NCBI GenBank assembly: GCA_945867815.1
Contig: CAMBIX010000001.1
Location: forward strand, 186,001 to 250,000
Direction: 5' to 3'
DNA: 64,000 bases
From: an uncultured Veillonellaceae bacterium
GTDB lineage: Bacteria > Bacillota > Negativicutes > Veillonellales > Veillonellaceae
Shown: positions 21,632 to 63,004 of the stretch, one piece after another
Layout: every line of letters starts with the position of its first letter
Position numbering within the stretch: position 1 is the first letter of the stretch
Program-made: the position numbers and the translations under genes
Notes under the pieces: generated by a model
What the model was told of the DNA's origin: nothing
The model's input: the letters and a program-made list of their open reading frames with translations, nothing else
Database searches by the model: none

Positions 21632-21666
21632 AAAAAAAGAACAGCCAATAAGGCTGTTCTTTTTTA
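21632..21666 (-). terminator. Bidirectional terminator between glnA and tpx
   Basis: AGAACAGCC (21638-21646) and GGCTGTTCT (21652-21660) form a 9-bp stem with A-run and T-run on either side. It can end transcription of tpx on the - strand and any read-through from glnA. Confidence 0.9.
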
Positions 21667-56825: not shown

Positions 56826-57515
56826 TTATAAGCGGTCACGGATAAGACCAATGACTTTACCGGCAATGGTGCAAGTATCTACAATAATAGGATCAAAGTC
56901 AGGATTTTCTGGTTGTAAACGAATATGTCCATTTTCTTTATAGAAACGTTTTACTGTGGCATCAAAATCCGGTTCTGTTTGGGCAACGACGATATCTCCA
57001 TTATTAGCTGTTTGTTGGCTACGTACGATAATCATATCACCTTCATACATGCCAATATCGCGCATAGATTCACCATGAACACGCAATAAGAAACAGTCAG
57101 AGTTACCGGTTAGCTGGGAAGGCAGAGGGAGTACATCTTCTATATTTTGCTCTGCTGTAATGGGTATACCCGCGGCCACAGTACCAATTAAAGGCACATT
57201 CCGTAGTGTCAGATTATTCATTTCGAAGGCTGGCCCATAAGCTGTTTGTGACCCAATGGCTTCACCACTAGTAATTGGTGTTTTATCTGGATTTAATAAA
57301 ACAGTAATAGCACGATTCTTATTGGGATCGCGCTTAATGTAGCCAAAGCGTTCTAAGGCATTTAAATGATTTTGAATAGTAGAGGTGGAACTCAGGCCTG
57401 TTTGTTTGCAAATTTCTCGAACAGATGGACAGCGGAAATAATTACGTGTACTGTCAATAATAAATTGTAAGATTTCTTTTTGTCTTGTGTTAATATCCGT
57501 TGCTGGTCGTCTCAT
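56826..57515 (-). CDS. lexA: SOS repressor LexA
   Basis: LexA represses SOS genes and self-cleaves when RecA is active. It has 229 residues, about 25 longer than usual because of a linker insert (about 78-105). The winged-helix region spans residues 26-60. The cleavage site is A115-G116 (VAAGIP), and the catalytic pair is S150 (HGESM) and K189 (ATVKRFY). It is divergent from the YneA-like gene and its promoter lies in the shared 171-bp gap. Confidence 0.96.
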   Translation of the reverse strand: MRRPATDINTRQKEILQFIIDSTRNYFRCPSVREICKQTGLSSTSTIQNHLNALERFGYIKRDPNKNRAITVLLNPDKTPITSGEAIGSQTAYGPAFEMNNLTLRNVPLIGTVAAGIPITAEQNIEDVLPLPSQLTGNSDCFLLRVHGESMRDIGMYEGDMIIVRSQQTANNGDIVVAQTEPDFDATVKRFYKENGHIRLQPENPDFDPIIVDTCTIAGKVIGLIRDRL

Positions 57516-57548
57516 AATAAACTCCTTTATTTAGATTAACTTATCTAT

Positions 57549-57578
57549 ATTATAAAGAATAGACACGAACAATGTCAA
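57549..57578 (-). promoter_or_regulatory. Promoter of lexA with GTTCG half-sites
   Basis: On the - strand, TTGACA (57578-57573) and TATAAT (57554-57549) are 18 bp apart. CGAAC at 57566-57570 lies in the spacer, and GTTCG at 57586-57590 lies just upstream of the -35 box; together they form an inverted pair with a 15-bp gap. No perfect LexA box overlaps this promoter. Confidence 0.7.
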
Positions 57579-57601
57579 GGTATTTGTTCGAATAAAAGTG
57601 C

Positions 57602-57656
57602 TTGACAGAACACTCGTTCGTTTAGTAGAATAAGCACGTAAACAAACGAACGTTCA
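57602..57656 (+). promoter_or_regulatory. LexA-regulated promoter of the YneA-like gene
   Basis: TTGACA (57602-57607) and TAGAAT (57626-57631) are 18 bp apart. Within the spacer lies AGAAC-ACTC-GTTCG (57607-57620), one mismatch from the Firmicute LexA box CGAAC-N4-GTTCG. A second, weaker box, CAAAC-GAAC-GTTCA (57643-57656), lies downstream of the -10 box. Confidence 0.82.
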
Positions 57657-57686
57657 ATTAGTATGTTTGCTGTATAAAGGAGATAG

Positions 57687-57992
57687 ATGCGAATGGGTAT
57701 ACGACGTGTAGTTAGAATAGAAGTTTTATTAGCTATTGCTATGATGATAACCGCTTTTTTCTGTATTCAATTATCACCTAAACAAGGCGTTATTGCTTCG
57801 GTAATAAGGAGTGATCAAACAATACAAGTAGAGAAAGGGGATACCTTATGGACCATAGCATCTAAATATACGGATAATTCAAAAGATGTACGTGAGACTA
57901 TCTACCAACTAAAGCAAATTAATCATATTAGTGATTCTGGAGATTTACAGCCTGGTATGACCTTGCAGATTCCAGCGAATCTCAGCCGGTGA
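57687..57992 (+). CDS. LysM protein, YneA-like SOS cell-division suppressor
   Basis: This 101-residue protein has one N-terminal transmembrane segment (about 10-28) and a C-terminal LysM domain (IQVEKGDTLWTIASKY to GMTLQIP, about 46-95). This layout, the size and its place divergent to lexA match YneA of Bacillus, which halts division during SOS. AAAGGAG ends 4 nt before ATG 57687; ATG 57693 is an alternative. The LexA-type boxes in its promoter support SOS control. Function is inferred from architecture and context. Confidence 0.82.
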   Translation: MRMGIRRVVRIEVLLAIAMMITAFFCIQLSPKQGVIASVIRSDQTIQVEKGDTLWTIASKYTDNSKDVRETIYQLKQINHISDSGDLQPGMTLQIPANLSR

Positions 57993-58051
57993 TAAGCAAT
58001 AGATAGATTATTTTATCTTAGTCATAAGTAGTCATTTTCTTCTCTTATTAT

Positions 58052-58085
58052 AAAAAGGCCTATGGACGTATACATAGGCCTTTTT
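58052..58085. terminator. Bidirectional terminator between the YneA-like gene and the recombinase
   Basis: AAAAAGGCCTATG (58052-58064) and CATAGGCCTTTTT (58073-58085) form a perfect 13-bp stem with an 8-nt loop, with usable T-runs in both directions. Confidence 0.93.
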
Positions 58086-58147
58086 ATATGGAAGACTTAT
58101 TGACTTGTTTCATAGGTCTTAAAAGAAGTTTTATGAATAGATTTCTT

Positions 58148-59149
58148 TCACCTATGAATGCGTTGATTAAAGATGGATGTAATAGGATTATCCACAAATT
58201 TATTGGCTTCATTAATGTATCGGCGTACCATATTTACGCTATGGTGGCGAGTCTGCCGCATAATATTTCGTTCTTCGATGCCGTAAGCAGCCGCCGTTGT
58301 AGCAAAGCCATGACGCAAACTATGGGCGCCATACATGGAAGGATCTAGACCAATTAAAGCTATATATTTTTTTACAATATCCGCAATCGATTTATCACTA
58401 AGGGCTGTTTTACGTAATGACATAGATTTAGTAAAGCCACGAAACAGAGGACCACTAGTAATTTGTGATACTTGAAGCCATTTACGAACAGCTAATACCG
58501 CACATAGGCGTTCGTCATCAATATAAGGAATAGCGACAACAGCGCCTTGTCCTTCTTGGTCGGCTTTGGAATTGGCTATAAATATTTCCATTCCTTTAGG
58601 GCTAAAACTAATATTTTCAAGGCGTAAGGCACTAATTTCACTTCGCCTAAAAGCACCCATAAAACCAATTAGTAGAATAGCCTTATCCCGTATTTGTACG
58701 ATAGGCGGAATATCCCACTTAGGCATACCCTCTATAATATCAATTAAGTCTTCTAATAATACAGGTGTTTTCCCTTGCTGATAGGTGCCCTTTAAGCGAC
58801 GAATACCACGCAAGGCTTGTTTGACTAAGGGAGATGTACAAGGATTTTCTGCTAGGCCGGCTGCATTAAAATTTTCTGAAATGGCGCTAATGCGACGAGA
58901 AATGGTATTGGCTTTAGCATAATCTGCCAAATCGTTAATATAATTAGAAATGGTTTCAGGTGATGCTGGATAATAGGAAGCTTTTTTATAGGTACACCAA
59001 TCGACAAAGTCATTCCAATCAGATTCATAGGCATCAATGGTATGTGGCGCCTTAGCTAAAAGAATGCGCTCTTTAGCCTTATCTGATAATTGTGAATTAC
59101 CTAAGACTTTAGTATTATCTCGTAAGTAGAAGTGATTGTTAGTAGACAT
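58148..59149 (-). CDS. Tyrosine site-specific recombinase, Cre-sized
   Basis: The protein has 333 residues: an N-terminal core-binding SAM-like domain (about 30-115) and a catalytic domain with all expected residues: R168 (GAFRRSE), K195 (NSKAD), H276 and R279 (AHSLRHG), H303 (RHHS) and nucleophile Y311. Spacing between these parallels Cre (343 residues). It is not XerC or XerD, which are shorter and have other conserved flanks. AAGGA lies about 10 nt before the start. No phage or transposon genes adjoin it. A lox-like inverted repeat lies 123 bp upstream. Confidence 0.9.
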   Translation of the reverse strand: MSTNNHFYLRDNTKVLGNSQLSDKAKERILLAKAPHTIDAYESDWNDFVDWCTYKKASYYPASPETISNYINDLADYAKANTISRRISAISENFNAAGLAENPCTSPLVKQALRGIRRLKGTYQQGKTPVLLEDLIDIIEGMPKWDIPPIVQIRDKAILLIGFMGAFRRSEISALRLENISFSPKGMEIFIANSKADQEGQGAVVAIPYIDDERLCAVLAVRKWLQVSQITSGPLFRGFTKSMSLRKTALSDKSIADIVKKYIALIGLDPSMYGAHSLRHGFATTAAAYGIEERNIMRQTRHHSVNMVRRYINEANKFVDNPITSIFNQRIHR

Positions 59150-59271
59150 AGTGCTGTATCCTTAAAATAATAAATTTATAGGTTATATGATGAGAAACTA
59201 ATCGATGAAATAAATTTTGGCTTTAATCGTTTGACATAAAGACGGCTAAAGGTCAAGTCTAGTACTCATAG

Positions 59272-59308
59272 AATAACTTCCGATAATATATCGTTATCGG
59301 AAGTTATT
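59272..59308. other. lox-like inverted repeat, candidate recombination site
   Basis: Perfect 15-base arms, AATAACTTCCGATAA (59272-59286) and TTATCGGAAGTTATT (59294-59308), flank an asymmetric 7-bp core TATATCG. The outer octamers ATAACTTC and GAAGTTAT equal those of loxP. It lies upstream of the divergent recombinase gene. No second copy was found in the window. The rest of the 537-bp gap (59150-59686) is AT-rich and holds only the promoter and leader hairpin of the next gene. Confidence 0.7.
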
Positions 59309-59658: not shown

Positions 59659-59686
59659 TCACAAGGTATTTTAAGGAGGAATGCGT

Positions 59687-61231
59687 ATGTTGACCAAGTG
59701 GACAACCCATTTTAAGCCAGACTTACATATCTTTGATGAAGCCACAAAGAAATTCTTTGCTAAAGAGCTAAGTCCATCTGAATATAAAGGTACATCTGGT
59801 GGTTTCGGTGCTTATGGTGAACGCGGTGCAAATACACTTATGTATCGTCTTCGCTTTTCTAGTGGTATTGTAACAGCTGATGATTTAAAGGCTTTACTTG
59901 AATTAATCCCTAAGTATAACGTGCCTATGGTTCACTTTACTACTTGTCAGTCTATTCAATTGCACCATATTACAGAAGAAAAAGCCTTACCTCTTATTCA
60001 CGACCTTTATGACCATGGGATTTTAACACGTGGTGGCGGCTCTGATTTTCCTCGTAATATAACGGGTCCGGCCTTAACTGGCGTTGATCCTAATGAATAT
60101 TTTGATGTTCGTCCCTATATGGAAGCAGCTGGTGAACAACTTCTTTCTTATATTGACCAGGTAACCTTACCACGTAAATTAAAGGTTTCCTTTTCTAATT
60201 CGCCAGATAATACACCGCATACATCAATCCGAGACTTAGGTTTTGTAGGCAATGCGAATGGAACCTTTGATGTTTATTCTATTGGCGGTTTGGGACCTAA
60301 TCCTAAATTAGGGGTTAAATGTTATGAACAAGTACCAGCTGACCAAATCTTATATTATATTGATGCCTTTATTGCTACTTGGACTATTCTAGGTGATTAC
60401 AAAAATAGGGCTAAGAATCGAACTCGTTATTTGCAAGTAACACCAGGTCTGATTGAATACCAAAAACTATTTGAAGAAAAATTGGCTCAAGCTAAGAAAA
60501 AAGACTTAACGATAAAAGATATTACAGTTCCACAAATCCATAAGACGGGTCAAGCCAAGGGCCTCACCCACCCTCGTATTCACAATCAAAAACAAGCTGG
60601 TCTCTATTATGTAGACTACCATCCTATTGGGGGGACACCAACTGTAGCTGAATTCCTAGATTTAGCTAAGGCTATTGTCGCCATTCCAGAGGCTGAATTA
60701 CGTTTAGCTGCTGATGAAACGGCTTATATTGTTAATTTAACAGCTGATCAAGCCTTACGAATTGCTAAGTTAACAGATACCGTTCATACTGCTAAAACAG
60801 CTTTTGAAGAATCTGTCTCCTGTGTAGGTGCCACGGTTTGTCAAATTGGTTTACAAGATTCACATGGTCTCTTAGAAGCTATATTAGCTGCCGCTAAGCC
60901 TTATCAATTTAAGGATGGTATATTACCACGTCTATACATTTCTGGCTGCCATAATTCTTGTGGCACTCATGAAGTTGGAACGATTGGTTTCCAAGGTGCT
61001 TTTAAGCCTGTCGATGGCAAACCGCAGCCAGCCTTTCAATTACACTACGGTGGTAGTGCCCATTTTGGTAAGGAAACCTTTGGACAACACTTAGGTACCT
61101 TACTAGCTACTGTTATTCCTCAGTTTATTGTCGCATTAGGTGAAAAAGTGCAAGCCTCTGGCCTAGATTTCTTATCTTGGGATAAAGCCCATCATGATGA
61201 CTTCTTAGCCTTAATTAAAGACTACGAATAA
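59687..61231 (+). CDS. Siroheme sulfite/nitrite reductase, paralogue 1
   Basis: This 514-residue protein has the two-fold repeat of the sulfite/nitrite reductase haemoprotein: ferredoxin-like half-domains (about 38-110 and 300-365) each followed by an alpha/beta siroheme domain. The cluster and siroheme ligands are C379 and C385 (CVGATVC), C421 and C425 (CHNSC), the full CX5C...CX3C pattern. It reduces sulfite to sulfide or nitrite to ammonia; which one cannot be told here. ATG 59687 is chosen, with AAGGAGG 7 nt upstream; ATG 59681 is too close. No flavin subunit is adjacent. Confidence 0.88.
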   Translation: MLTKWTTHFKPDLHIFDEATKKFFAKELSPSEYKGTSGGFGAYGERGANTLMYRLRFSSGIVTADDLKALLELIPKYNVPMVHFTTCQSIQLHHITEEKALPLIHDLYDHGILTRGGGSDFPRNITGPALTGVDPNEYFDVRPYMEAAGEQLLSYIDQVTLPRKLKVSFSNSPDNTPHTSIRDLGFVGNANGTFDVYSIGGLGPNPKLGVKCYEQVPADQILYYIDAFIATWTILGDYKNRAKNRTRYLQVTPGLIEYQKLFEEKLAQAKKKDLTIKDITVPQIHKTGQAKGLTHPRIHNQKQAGLYYVDYHPIGGTPTVAEFLDLAKAIVAIPEAELRLAADETAYIVNLTADQALRIAKLTDTVHTAKTAFEESVSCVGATVCQIGLQDSHGLLEAILAAAKPYQFKDGILPRLYISGCHNSCGTHEVGTIGFQGAFKPVDGKPQPAFQLHYGGSAHFGKETFGQHLGTLLATVIPQFIVALGEKVQASGLDFLSWDKAHHDDFLALIKDYE

Positions 61232-61249
61232 ATTTTAATACGATACGAT

Positions 61250-61297
61250 AAGGCAGTAAACATAGTCTATCCATATAGGTTATGTTTACTGCCTTTT
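61250..61297 (+). terminator. Terminator between the two siroheme reductases
   Basis: Perfect 15-base arms (61250-61264 and 61281-61295, AAGGCAGTAAACATA) with a 16-nt loop; only four T in the tract. The second paralogue therefore probably has its own promoter. Confidence 0.85.
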
Positions 61298-61412
61298 CCA
61301 TGCCCTATTTTACTTATTATGTCTACCTGTGCTTATTGTTATTTCTTTTTTTGTCCATTCATGATACACTACCTAAATATGTGCGTATGAATATATGCGT
61401 TTATCCTTATTG

Positions 61413-61427
61413 TATGTTGTCAACATA
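61413..61427. promoter_or_regulatory. Short perfect dyad before the second siroheme reductase
   Basis: TATGTTG and CAACATA are exact inverted repeats around a single T, 26 bp upstream of the start codon. The size and position suit a repressor operator. I could not identify a convincing promoter; TTGTCC at about 61351 followed 17 bp later by TAAATA is weak. Confidence 0.45.
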
Positions 61428-61453
61428 ACTAGTTGACCAAGGAGAAAAAAAGT

Positions 61454-63004
61454 ATGAATAAATGGGCAAATGTATTCAAAGATGATTTATGGCAATTCGA
61501 AGAAGCGACAAAGCAATTTTTTGCTAAAGAAATCAAGCCAAATGACTATAAAACAAAGGCCTTAGGCTTTGGCGCCGTTGGTGAGCGTGGTGCTAATAGT
61601 ATTATGATTCGTCTCCGTTTTACTGGCGGAACAATAACTAAAGAAGAACTAGAAGCGCTTGCTTCTATTGTGGAAGACTTTCAACTAAACACGCTACACT
61701 TTACAACTGGCCAGACTTTTCAATTCCATCACTTAGGCCCTGATAAGGCCATTCCTCTTATGCGGGCAATTTATGACCGTGGGCTAGTTAGTCGTGGTAG
61801 TGGCTCAGATTATCCAAATAACGTAACAGCCCCCTCCCTACGTGGACTTACTAAGGATGAATACTTTGATTTGGGAAACATACCGGATGTAGCTAATGAT
61901 TATCTATTAGGAAAAATTAATCACCTATCTTTACCTAGAAAGGTTAAAACGGCCTTTTCTAATGGGCCAAGTACGGATTCATTAGTCCGCTTTCGTGATA
62001 TGGGTTTTGTCGGTCGATTGGACGGTTTATTTGATTTCTTTACCTTAGGTGGTATTGGCCCTAATCCACAAATTGGTGTAAAAACAGCTGAAGCTATAGA
62101 GCCAGCTGATATCCTTTATTATATAGAAGCCTTTTTACAGACCTATGTCTCTTTGGCTGATTTTAAGGCTCGTAGCCGTAATCGTAGCCGCTACTTGCAA
62201 AAATCGCCTGGATTAGATACGTATTTAGAACGTTTTGGTCAGGAACTAGCTAAGGTTTATGAAAAAGATTTATCTTATACATTTGAACCAACTAAGATAC
62301 GAACAATTAGCCCTAATGATACAGAGGTTCTTGTCGATACGAAACAACAGCCACGCATTCATAGGCAAAAACAGGATGGCCTCTACTATGTTACCTATCA
62401 TCCCTTAGGTGGTATGATTAGTGGCCAAGAATTTCTTGCTTTTGCTAAGACTGTGCTTGCTATAGATGGTGCCCTTGTCCGCCTTGGTGGTGAAGAAACT
62501 TTATACATTGCTAATCTTACTACTGAGGAAGCTTTAGCCGTAAATAAAGTAACCGCTTCTTCCGGCACTACGGCTTTTGAACGGTCAGTAGCTTGTGTGG
62601 GTTCTAAGACTTGTCAAATAGGGGTTCGTGATTCACAAGATCTATTAGCTTCTATATTAGAGGCAGCTAGACCTTATCAATTTGCTGATGGTGTATTACC
62701 ACAGATTTATATTTCTGGTTGCAGTAATTCTTGTGGTACCCATGAAATTGGAGAACTTGGCTTTCATGGATTTGTAAAATTAGTAGATAAGAAACCACAA
62801 GCCGCCTTCTCCCTTCATTTCGGTGGTAGCGAACATTTAGGAACAGAGAAATTCGGTCAACAAATGGGCGTATTGTTAACTGAAGATATTCCTTCTTTTA
62901 TTATCGATTTAGGTAAAGCCGTTAGCCTATCGGGGCCGACTTTTACTGAATGGATAAAAAGACATACAAATGACTTTCAAGACTTATTAAAACCTTATCT
63001 CTAA
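61454..63004 (+). CDS. Siroheme sulfite/nitrite reductase, paralogue 2
   Basis: This 516-residue protein is a clear paralogue of the preceding gene; motif order is the same (GFGAVGERGANS, RFRDMGFVGRLDG, GGIGPNP). Ligands are C381 and C387 (CVGSKTC), C423 and C427 (CSNSC). ATG 61454 is preferred, with AAGGAG 9 nt upstream; a TTG 21 bp earlier overlaps that box. The two copies differ at many positions, which argues for an old duplication and possibly different substrates or conditions. Confidence 0.88.
   Translation: MNKWANVFKDDLWQFEEATKQFFAKEIKPNDYKTKALGFGAVGERGANSIMIRLRFTGGTITKEELEALASIVEDFQLNTLHFTTGQTFQFHHLGPDKAIPLMRAIYDRGLVSRGSGSDYPNNVTAPSLRGLTKDEYFDLGNIPDVANDYLLGKINHLSLPRKVKTAFSNGPSTDSLVRFRDMGFVGRLDGLFDFFTLGGIGPNPQIGVKTAEAIEPADILYYIEAFLQTYVSLADFKARSRNRSRYLQKSPGLDTYLERFGQELAKVYEKDLSYTFEPTKIRTISPNDTEVLVDTKQQPRIHRQKQDGLYYVTYHPLGGMISGQEFLAFAKTVLAIDGALVRLGGEETLYIANLTTEEALAVNKVTASSGTTAFERSVACVGSKTCQIGVRDSQDLLASILEAARPYQFADGVLPQIYISGCSNSCGTHEIGELGFHGFVKLVDKKPQAAFSLHFGGSEHLGTEKFGQQMGVLLTEDIPSFIIDLGKAVSLSGPTFTEWIKRHTNDFQDLLKPYL

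Follow-up and report, generated by a model that had tools for sequence, protein, structure and literature searches.

Resolution of chromosome dimers through XerCD is regarded as nearly universal, and to our knowledge few single-enzyme replacements have been described (XerS, XerH, XerA and XerL). The XerS/difSL system of streptococci and lactococci and the XerH/difH system of epsilonproteobacteria each pair one recombinase with a terminus site to which it is often linked, as at the locus described here; difSL is an imperfect repeat with an 11-bp centre (PMC5357621). The arms of the XerL/difLp site are reported to be long uninterrupted inverted repeats of 10 and 12 bp (PMC9765430). In the 64-kb stretch of Veillonellaceae DNA that we analysed (the window), the gene for a Cre-like tyrosine recombinase lies beside an intergenic dif-like site (Table 1). 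We propose, with a probability of roughly nine in ten and from sequence comparison, that the two form the chromosome dimer-resolution (Xer/dif) system of the Veillonellales and many other Negativicutes, in which one Cre-like enzyme would act on one near-palindromic, dif-type terminus site. The recombinase seems to replace the usual XerC/XerD pair.

Table 1. Features of the recombinase locus, in window coordinates
Feature	Position	Strand	Basis
Dif-like predicted recombination site, 15-7-15	59272..59308		Inverted repeat; conserved; GC-skew switch
Left arm AATAACTTCCGATAA, conserved over its inner 11 bp ACTTCCGATAA	59272..59286	+	Alignment of relatives
Asymmetric 7-bp core TATATCG (other strand CGATATA), predicted strand-exchange region	59287..59293		Sequence; 7 bp class-wide
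Right arm TTATCGGAAGTTATT	59294..59308	-	Alignment of relatives
Tyrosine recombinase, Cre-like, 333 aa	58148..59149	-	ORF and Pfam; catalytic R168, K195, H276, R279, H302, Y311
Conserved neighbour: small LysM-domain protein with N-terminal hydrophobic stretch	57687..57992	+	Pfam LysM; synteny across Veillonellales
Conserved neighbour: lexA	56826..57515	-	Pfam LexA_DNA_bind and Peptidase_S24; synteny

The sequence-only reading of this DNA had described a complete tyrosine recombinase of 333 residues, which the open reading frame and a match to the Phage_integrase family (Pfam, E 3e-14) bear out; a SAM-like domain at the N terminus is followed by the catalytic domain. R168, K195, H276, R279 and Y311 of the catalytic set then proposed are invariant in 42 orthologues. 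The last catalytic histidine had been given as H303; it is H302, nine residues ahead of Y311 and likewise invariant in the 42 orthologues. An AlphaFold model of the protein (pLDDT 82) found its best solved-fold match in Cre (Foldseek, E 1.7e-13) and weaker ones in XerA (E 7e-8) and XerH (E 2e-7), the large overall rmsd from Cre arising because the domains are placed differently. The recombinase joins a predicted Cre fold to the catalytic set R, K, H, R, H, Y. Its scores against NCBIfam profiles stayed far below the cut-offs, for the equivalogs XerC (49.5 bits, cut-off 335) and XerD (50.3 bits, cut-off 330) as well as for XerS (39.5 bits, cut-off 267) and archaeal XerA (60.2 bits, cut-off 220).

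The full site, AATAACTTCCGATAA-TATATCG-TTATCGGAAGTTATT, is the perfect 15-bp inverted repeat around an asymmetric 7-bp core that had been reported upstream of the recombinase, 122 bp from its start codon. In forty simulated windows of the same dinucleotide make-up, perfect repeats of this type (arms of 13 bp or longer, loop of 5–9 bp) were absent; the window itself has two further such repeats, one at 21633 and one at 58049-58088 that resembles a normal terminator. Both arms do equal loxP over their outer 8 bp, and 11 of 13 arm positions agree with loxP, the exact match being partly local because most relatives have ATTACTTC. Cre/lox sites consist of 13-bp arms and an 8-bp spacer, whereas the arrangement here is 15-7-15, or 13-9-13 with trimmed arms. 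The label 'Cre-type' holds for the fold and fails for membership, the protein being 25% identical to P1 Cre and the centre of its site being 7 or 9 bp long, not 8. The perfect symmetry of the arms is unusual for dif and counts against our reading.

Among 23 Veillonellaceae the 29 central site positions average 98.8% conservation, against 50–53% in the flanks, which vary like neutral DNA. The site is under strong selection and, as expected of dif, is non-coding and conserved far above its flanks; neither loss of the repeat beside orthologous recombinases nor neutral variation of it was seen. The earlier observation that the window lacks a second site extends to the whole 1.97-Mb assembly, which has one copy. 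Of 61 genomes of the order, 37 contain the inner motif ACTTCCGATAA-N7-TTATCGGAAGT exactly once each, and its reversed control had no matches in the set. The site thereby shows, in these 37 genomes and its own, the one copy per chromosome that characterizes dif. Throughout the class the core is 7 bp long and asymmetric, with a lineage-specific sequence (CGATATA in Veillonella, CGTTAAA in Megasphaera, GTATAAA in Selenomonadaceae and CTATAAA in several other families). Some Selenomonadaceae genomes (G200, G230, G128 and G204) have three to six copies of the motif with differing cores, perhaps sitting on plasmids or integrated elements.

By protein search, 57 of 60 relatives each have exactly one orthologue of the recombinase. 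Identity is 72–76% inside the family and 54–60% across the order, and a GTDB genome scan placed orthologues in Veillonella, Megasphaera, Dialister, Selenomonas, Anaerovibrio, Sporomusa and others. These form one clade that tracks taxonomy, in a tree computed without canonical XerC/XerD rows. In nearly every sufficiently long Veillonellales locus lexA and the LysM gene are kept beside the recombinase; the LysM protein resembles the SOS division inhibitor YneA. The recombinase is unlike a mobile integrase because each genome has one orthologue, the clade follows taxonomy and these neighbours are conserved, and by such comparisons we regard the gene as core, not mobile; no mobile genes adjoin it at the locus, as had been stated. 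Positions 56826-57992 together with the recombinase gene make up what looks like an SOS, division and dimer-resolution neighbourhood across the Veillonellales. Elsewhere, the window carries two tandem paralogous nitrite/sulfite-reductase-like genes (59681-63004).

To locate the site relative to the replication terminus, we computed GC skew from sampled stretches. In Veillonella parvula SKV38 the sampled skew stays positive over 0–1.114 Mb and is negative beyond, and the cumulative maximum within the 100 kb around the site falls 127 bp from it. The site lies 131 bp (G076), 883 bp (G039) and 2.4 kb (G134) from the local cumulative maximum on three other chromosomes; the terminus distances thus rest on four complete chromosomes, on all of which the site occupies the skew-switch position typical of dif. 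The recombinase gene is about 102 kb from the site in G039, assuming that the contig closes on itself, and 167 kb from it in G134; the terminus is therefore marked by the site and not by the gene. On the contig under study the sign of the skew flips at the site (best changepoint about 9 kb away), and the skew peak of this draft genome is 7.8 kb from the site, which counts against the assignment. Since the gene is core and its site is single-copy at the replication terminus, the statement in the sequence-only reading that the purpose of the pair is open was too cautious. Strand-biased octamers pointing towards the site were considered as KOPS and rejected, coding-strand bias being uncontrolled, and core orientation relative to the ori–ter axis was dropped since reversal of the whole chromosome flips the core. 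On contig G000:C1 the GC skew falls from about 0.2 to near 0.05 between 50001 and 130000, with an integrase gene (C1:124045) near one edge; this segment is probably a large recent insertion.

None of the 60 relatives in the order reached the XerD cut-off, and canonical XerC and XerD are missing throughout the order; FtsK-gamma is present in the genome under study. The 250 genomes surveyed across the class divide into 88 with the orthologue but no canonical XerD, 94 with XerD but no orthologue, 25 with both and 43 with neither. The orthologue tends to be absent where XerD is present (Fisher p 1.5e-13), and the site tends to occur where the orthologue does (p 2.4e-31), both p-values overstating independence because the tests ignore shared ancestry. 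A single XerC/D-like gene was found in 15 of the 25 XerD genomes with the orthologue versus 8 of the 94 without it (p 2e-7, ancestry again ignored), which suggests stepwise loss after the new system arrived; in the 25 genomes with both, the role of the orthologue could be shared or different. The 43 genomes with neither system (e.g. G104, G188, G190, G246 of family f14, G013) also lack the site with few exceptions. Some relatives thus manage otherwise, and these 43 may use a third dimer-resolution system. A recombinase search of 30 genomes seemingly without the orthologue, run with no positive control, found nothing.

In the proposed mechanism, homologous recombination between sister chromosomes would leave a circular dimer, whose two site copies would meet at the division septum. 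Four recombinase subunits would bind the four arms of the two sites and exchange strands twice in succession over the 7-bp core, splitting the dimer into monomers, a reaction we infer because the protein belongs to the tyrosine recombinase family. If the system works like other Xer systems, FtsK would juxtapose the sites and switch the reaction on. Site binding, recombination and FtsK dependence are accordingly predicted properties of the recombinase.

The idea of a self-contained recombinase/site pair is supported by conservation of the pair across much of the class and by the matching sites of several of its nearest plasmid relatives. It had been offered as part of a resident element, a dimer-resolution system or an inversion system; we keep dimer resolution, that of the chromosome, and set aside the other two in view of the core gene and the single-copy terminus site. 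Tyrosine recombinases are often integrases, and the nearest relatives outside the class do sit on plasmids, while a Veillonella prophage abuts the dif-like site. It is nevertheless extremely unlikely that a resident mobile element (prophage, ICE or integrated plasmid) uses the pair as its integrase and attachment site: the prophage beside the site encodes an integrase other than this recombinase, mobile genes are absent next to the recombinase, and within the order the recombinase is a core gene in single copy, with a vertical phylogeny and conserved lexA and LysM neighbours. A DNA inversion switch, which would likewise employ a tyrosine recombinase and inverted repeats, would need two sites to work on; the genome under study and nearly all relatives have only one, leaving this explanation a negligible probability.

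The palindrome might alternatively be a regulatory element of the recombinase gene (promoter, operator or terminator), given that it lies 90–130 bp upstream of that gene in many genomes. In the V. parvula clade, however, about 2.4 kb and two other genes separate them, and in Selenomonadaceae and Megasphaera the site, though unlinked to the gene, is intact and keeps its terminus position. Neither a promoter nor an operator role explains a site that stays at the terminus without the gene and that has two genes interposed in V. parvula; as a sole function, regulation is refuted and about as improbable as a resident element, although secondary autoregulation is possible. Position at the skew switch does not by itself name a protein, and the site could serve as a terminus landmark for another one (a fork trap or macrodomain marker) while the recombinase acts elsewhere. 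This we consider very unlikely, since site and recombinase co-occur across the 250 genomes and plasmid recombinases of the same family adjoin sites with the same inner arm.

For the dimer-resolution system that we favour, the relatives outside the class point to an origin. The nearest are plasmid recombinases (38–45% identity), the best matches being those of Alicyclobacillus and Paenibacillus (41–45%), whereas phage relatives are mostly near 26%. An A. dauci plasmid has ACTTCTGATAA-CGTTAAA-TTATCGGAAGT 21 bp upstream of its homologue, an A. acidocaldarius plasmid has TGATGTCCGATAA-GTGATTG-TTATCGGACATCA close to the homologue, and a Protochlamydia plasmid has TTCTAACGTTCGATAA-TGTGTTC-TTATCGAACGTTAGAA within about 80 bp of the homologue start. 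A related site is nearby on several plasmids with homologues, yet not on every plasmid examined, and the homologues often neighbour toxin–antitoxin and ParA genes. Because the nearest relatives are plasmid-borne and several lie beside matching sites, the recombinase was probably acquired from a plasmid and probably displaced XerCD afterwards, with XerC and XerD lost stepwise. It is likely that much of the class swapped its ancestral two-enzyme XerCD/dif for a plasmid-derived Cre-like recombinase and lox-like site, and that intermediates survive as genomes with the orthologue and a lone XerC/D-like gene. If true, this would be a documented case of a mobile-element resolution system turned into the chromosome's dimer-resolution machinery.

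Several viral sequences also carry the site or its motif. In the Veillonella prophage L152 (IMG/VR 2843551353_000003, positions 1-1076), host flank matches V. tobetsuensis up to the outer site edge and the phage's own integrase gene follows directly; the phage is apparently integrated at the dif-like site. Its other end has no half-site and no host sequence, so the record is probably incomplete. The contig of L145 (1-11013) and L147 has gyrA, a recombinase of 33% identity, a site whose inner arms are identical (core CCATCAA) and zot-like, filamentous-phage-like genes, possibly a parallel system exploited by an inovirus. The motif just upstream of a small-terminase-like gene in the tailed phage of L148 (6133-6161) and L149 is possibly a dif mimic, and the viral contigs L144, L146 and L151 have the motif with other cores and no close recombinase.

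Our results add a proposed single-enzyme system that spans much of the Negativicutes, among them oral and gut Veillonella, Megasphaera, Dialister and Selenomonas, and suggest a way for a plasmid enzyme to assume a core task of the chromosome. The predicted dif site is a precise terminus marker for these genomes and may explain the integration spots of some Negativicutes phages. Naturally diverse Cre-like enzymes with predicted sites are also of use for genome engineering. In the full-text literature searched no paper ties Veillonella or Negativicutes to a dif site; most subscription papers lie outside this coverage, so novelty is unproven. Veillonella is unmentioned in the main text of a 2011 survey of dif sites and in a 2017 review of single-recombinase systems.

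The Veillonella system shares with XerC/XerD-dif its proposed job at the terminus and the presence of FtsK-gamma, but has one recombinase where that system has two, with about 50 bits against cut-offs of 330–335; the arms of Escherichia coli dif are unrelated to those of the Veillonella site. Phage P1 Cre/loxP offers the best solved-fold match and 11 of 13 shared arm bases. SloxP, whose sequence is present in a Shewanella plasmid, has the same inner TCCGATAA...TTATCGGA as the site. No recombinase lies within 2.5 kb of that plasmid site; one about 4.2 kb away is likely SCre and is 25% identical to the Veillonella enzyme. Cre and this presumed SCre fall outside the clade of orthologues, and in contrast to Cre/loxP and SCre/SloxP the Veillonella system is chromosomal and core, not of a phage or plasmid, and has a 7-bp centre. 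The plasmid 'site-specific integrases' of Alicyclobacillus, Paenibacillus, Protochlamydia and others are alike in sequence (36–45% identity) and, in several, in having CGATAA-N7-TTATCG near the gene; they differ in being plasmid-borne, many beside toxin–antitoxin or ParA genes, and presumably serve plasmid multimer resolution. XerS/difSL differs in its imperfect repeat and 11-bp centre, the Veillonella recombinase reaching 39.5 bits against the XerS cut-off of 267, and XerH matches the predicted fold less well than Cre does. XerL/difLp is alike in its single recombinase, a dif near the cumulative GC-skew maximum, long uninterrupted arms, a gene–site separation that can be large and a mobile element that integrates at dif (PMC9765430). 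It belongs to another phylum and has been shown experimentally, whereas the Veillonella system is predicted from sequence, the two being compared by description only. The Veillonella system is like XerS, XerH and XerL in kind and appears to form a new lineage, and its closest precedent is XerL/dif of the Legionellales.
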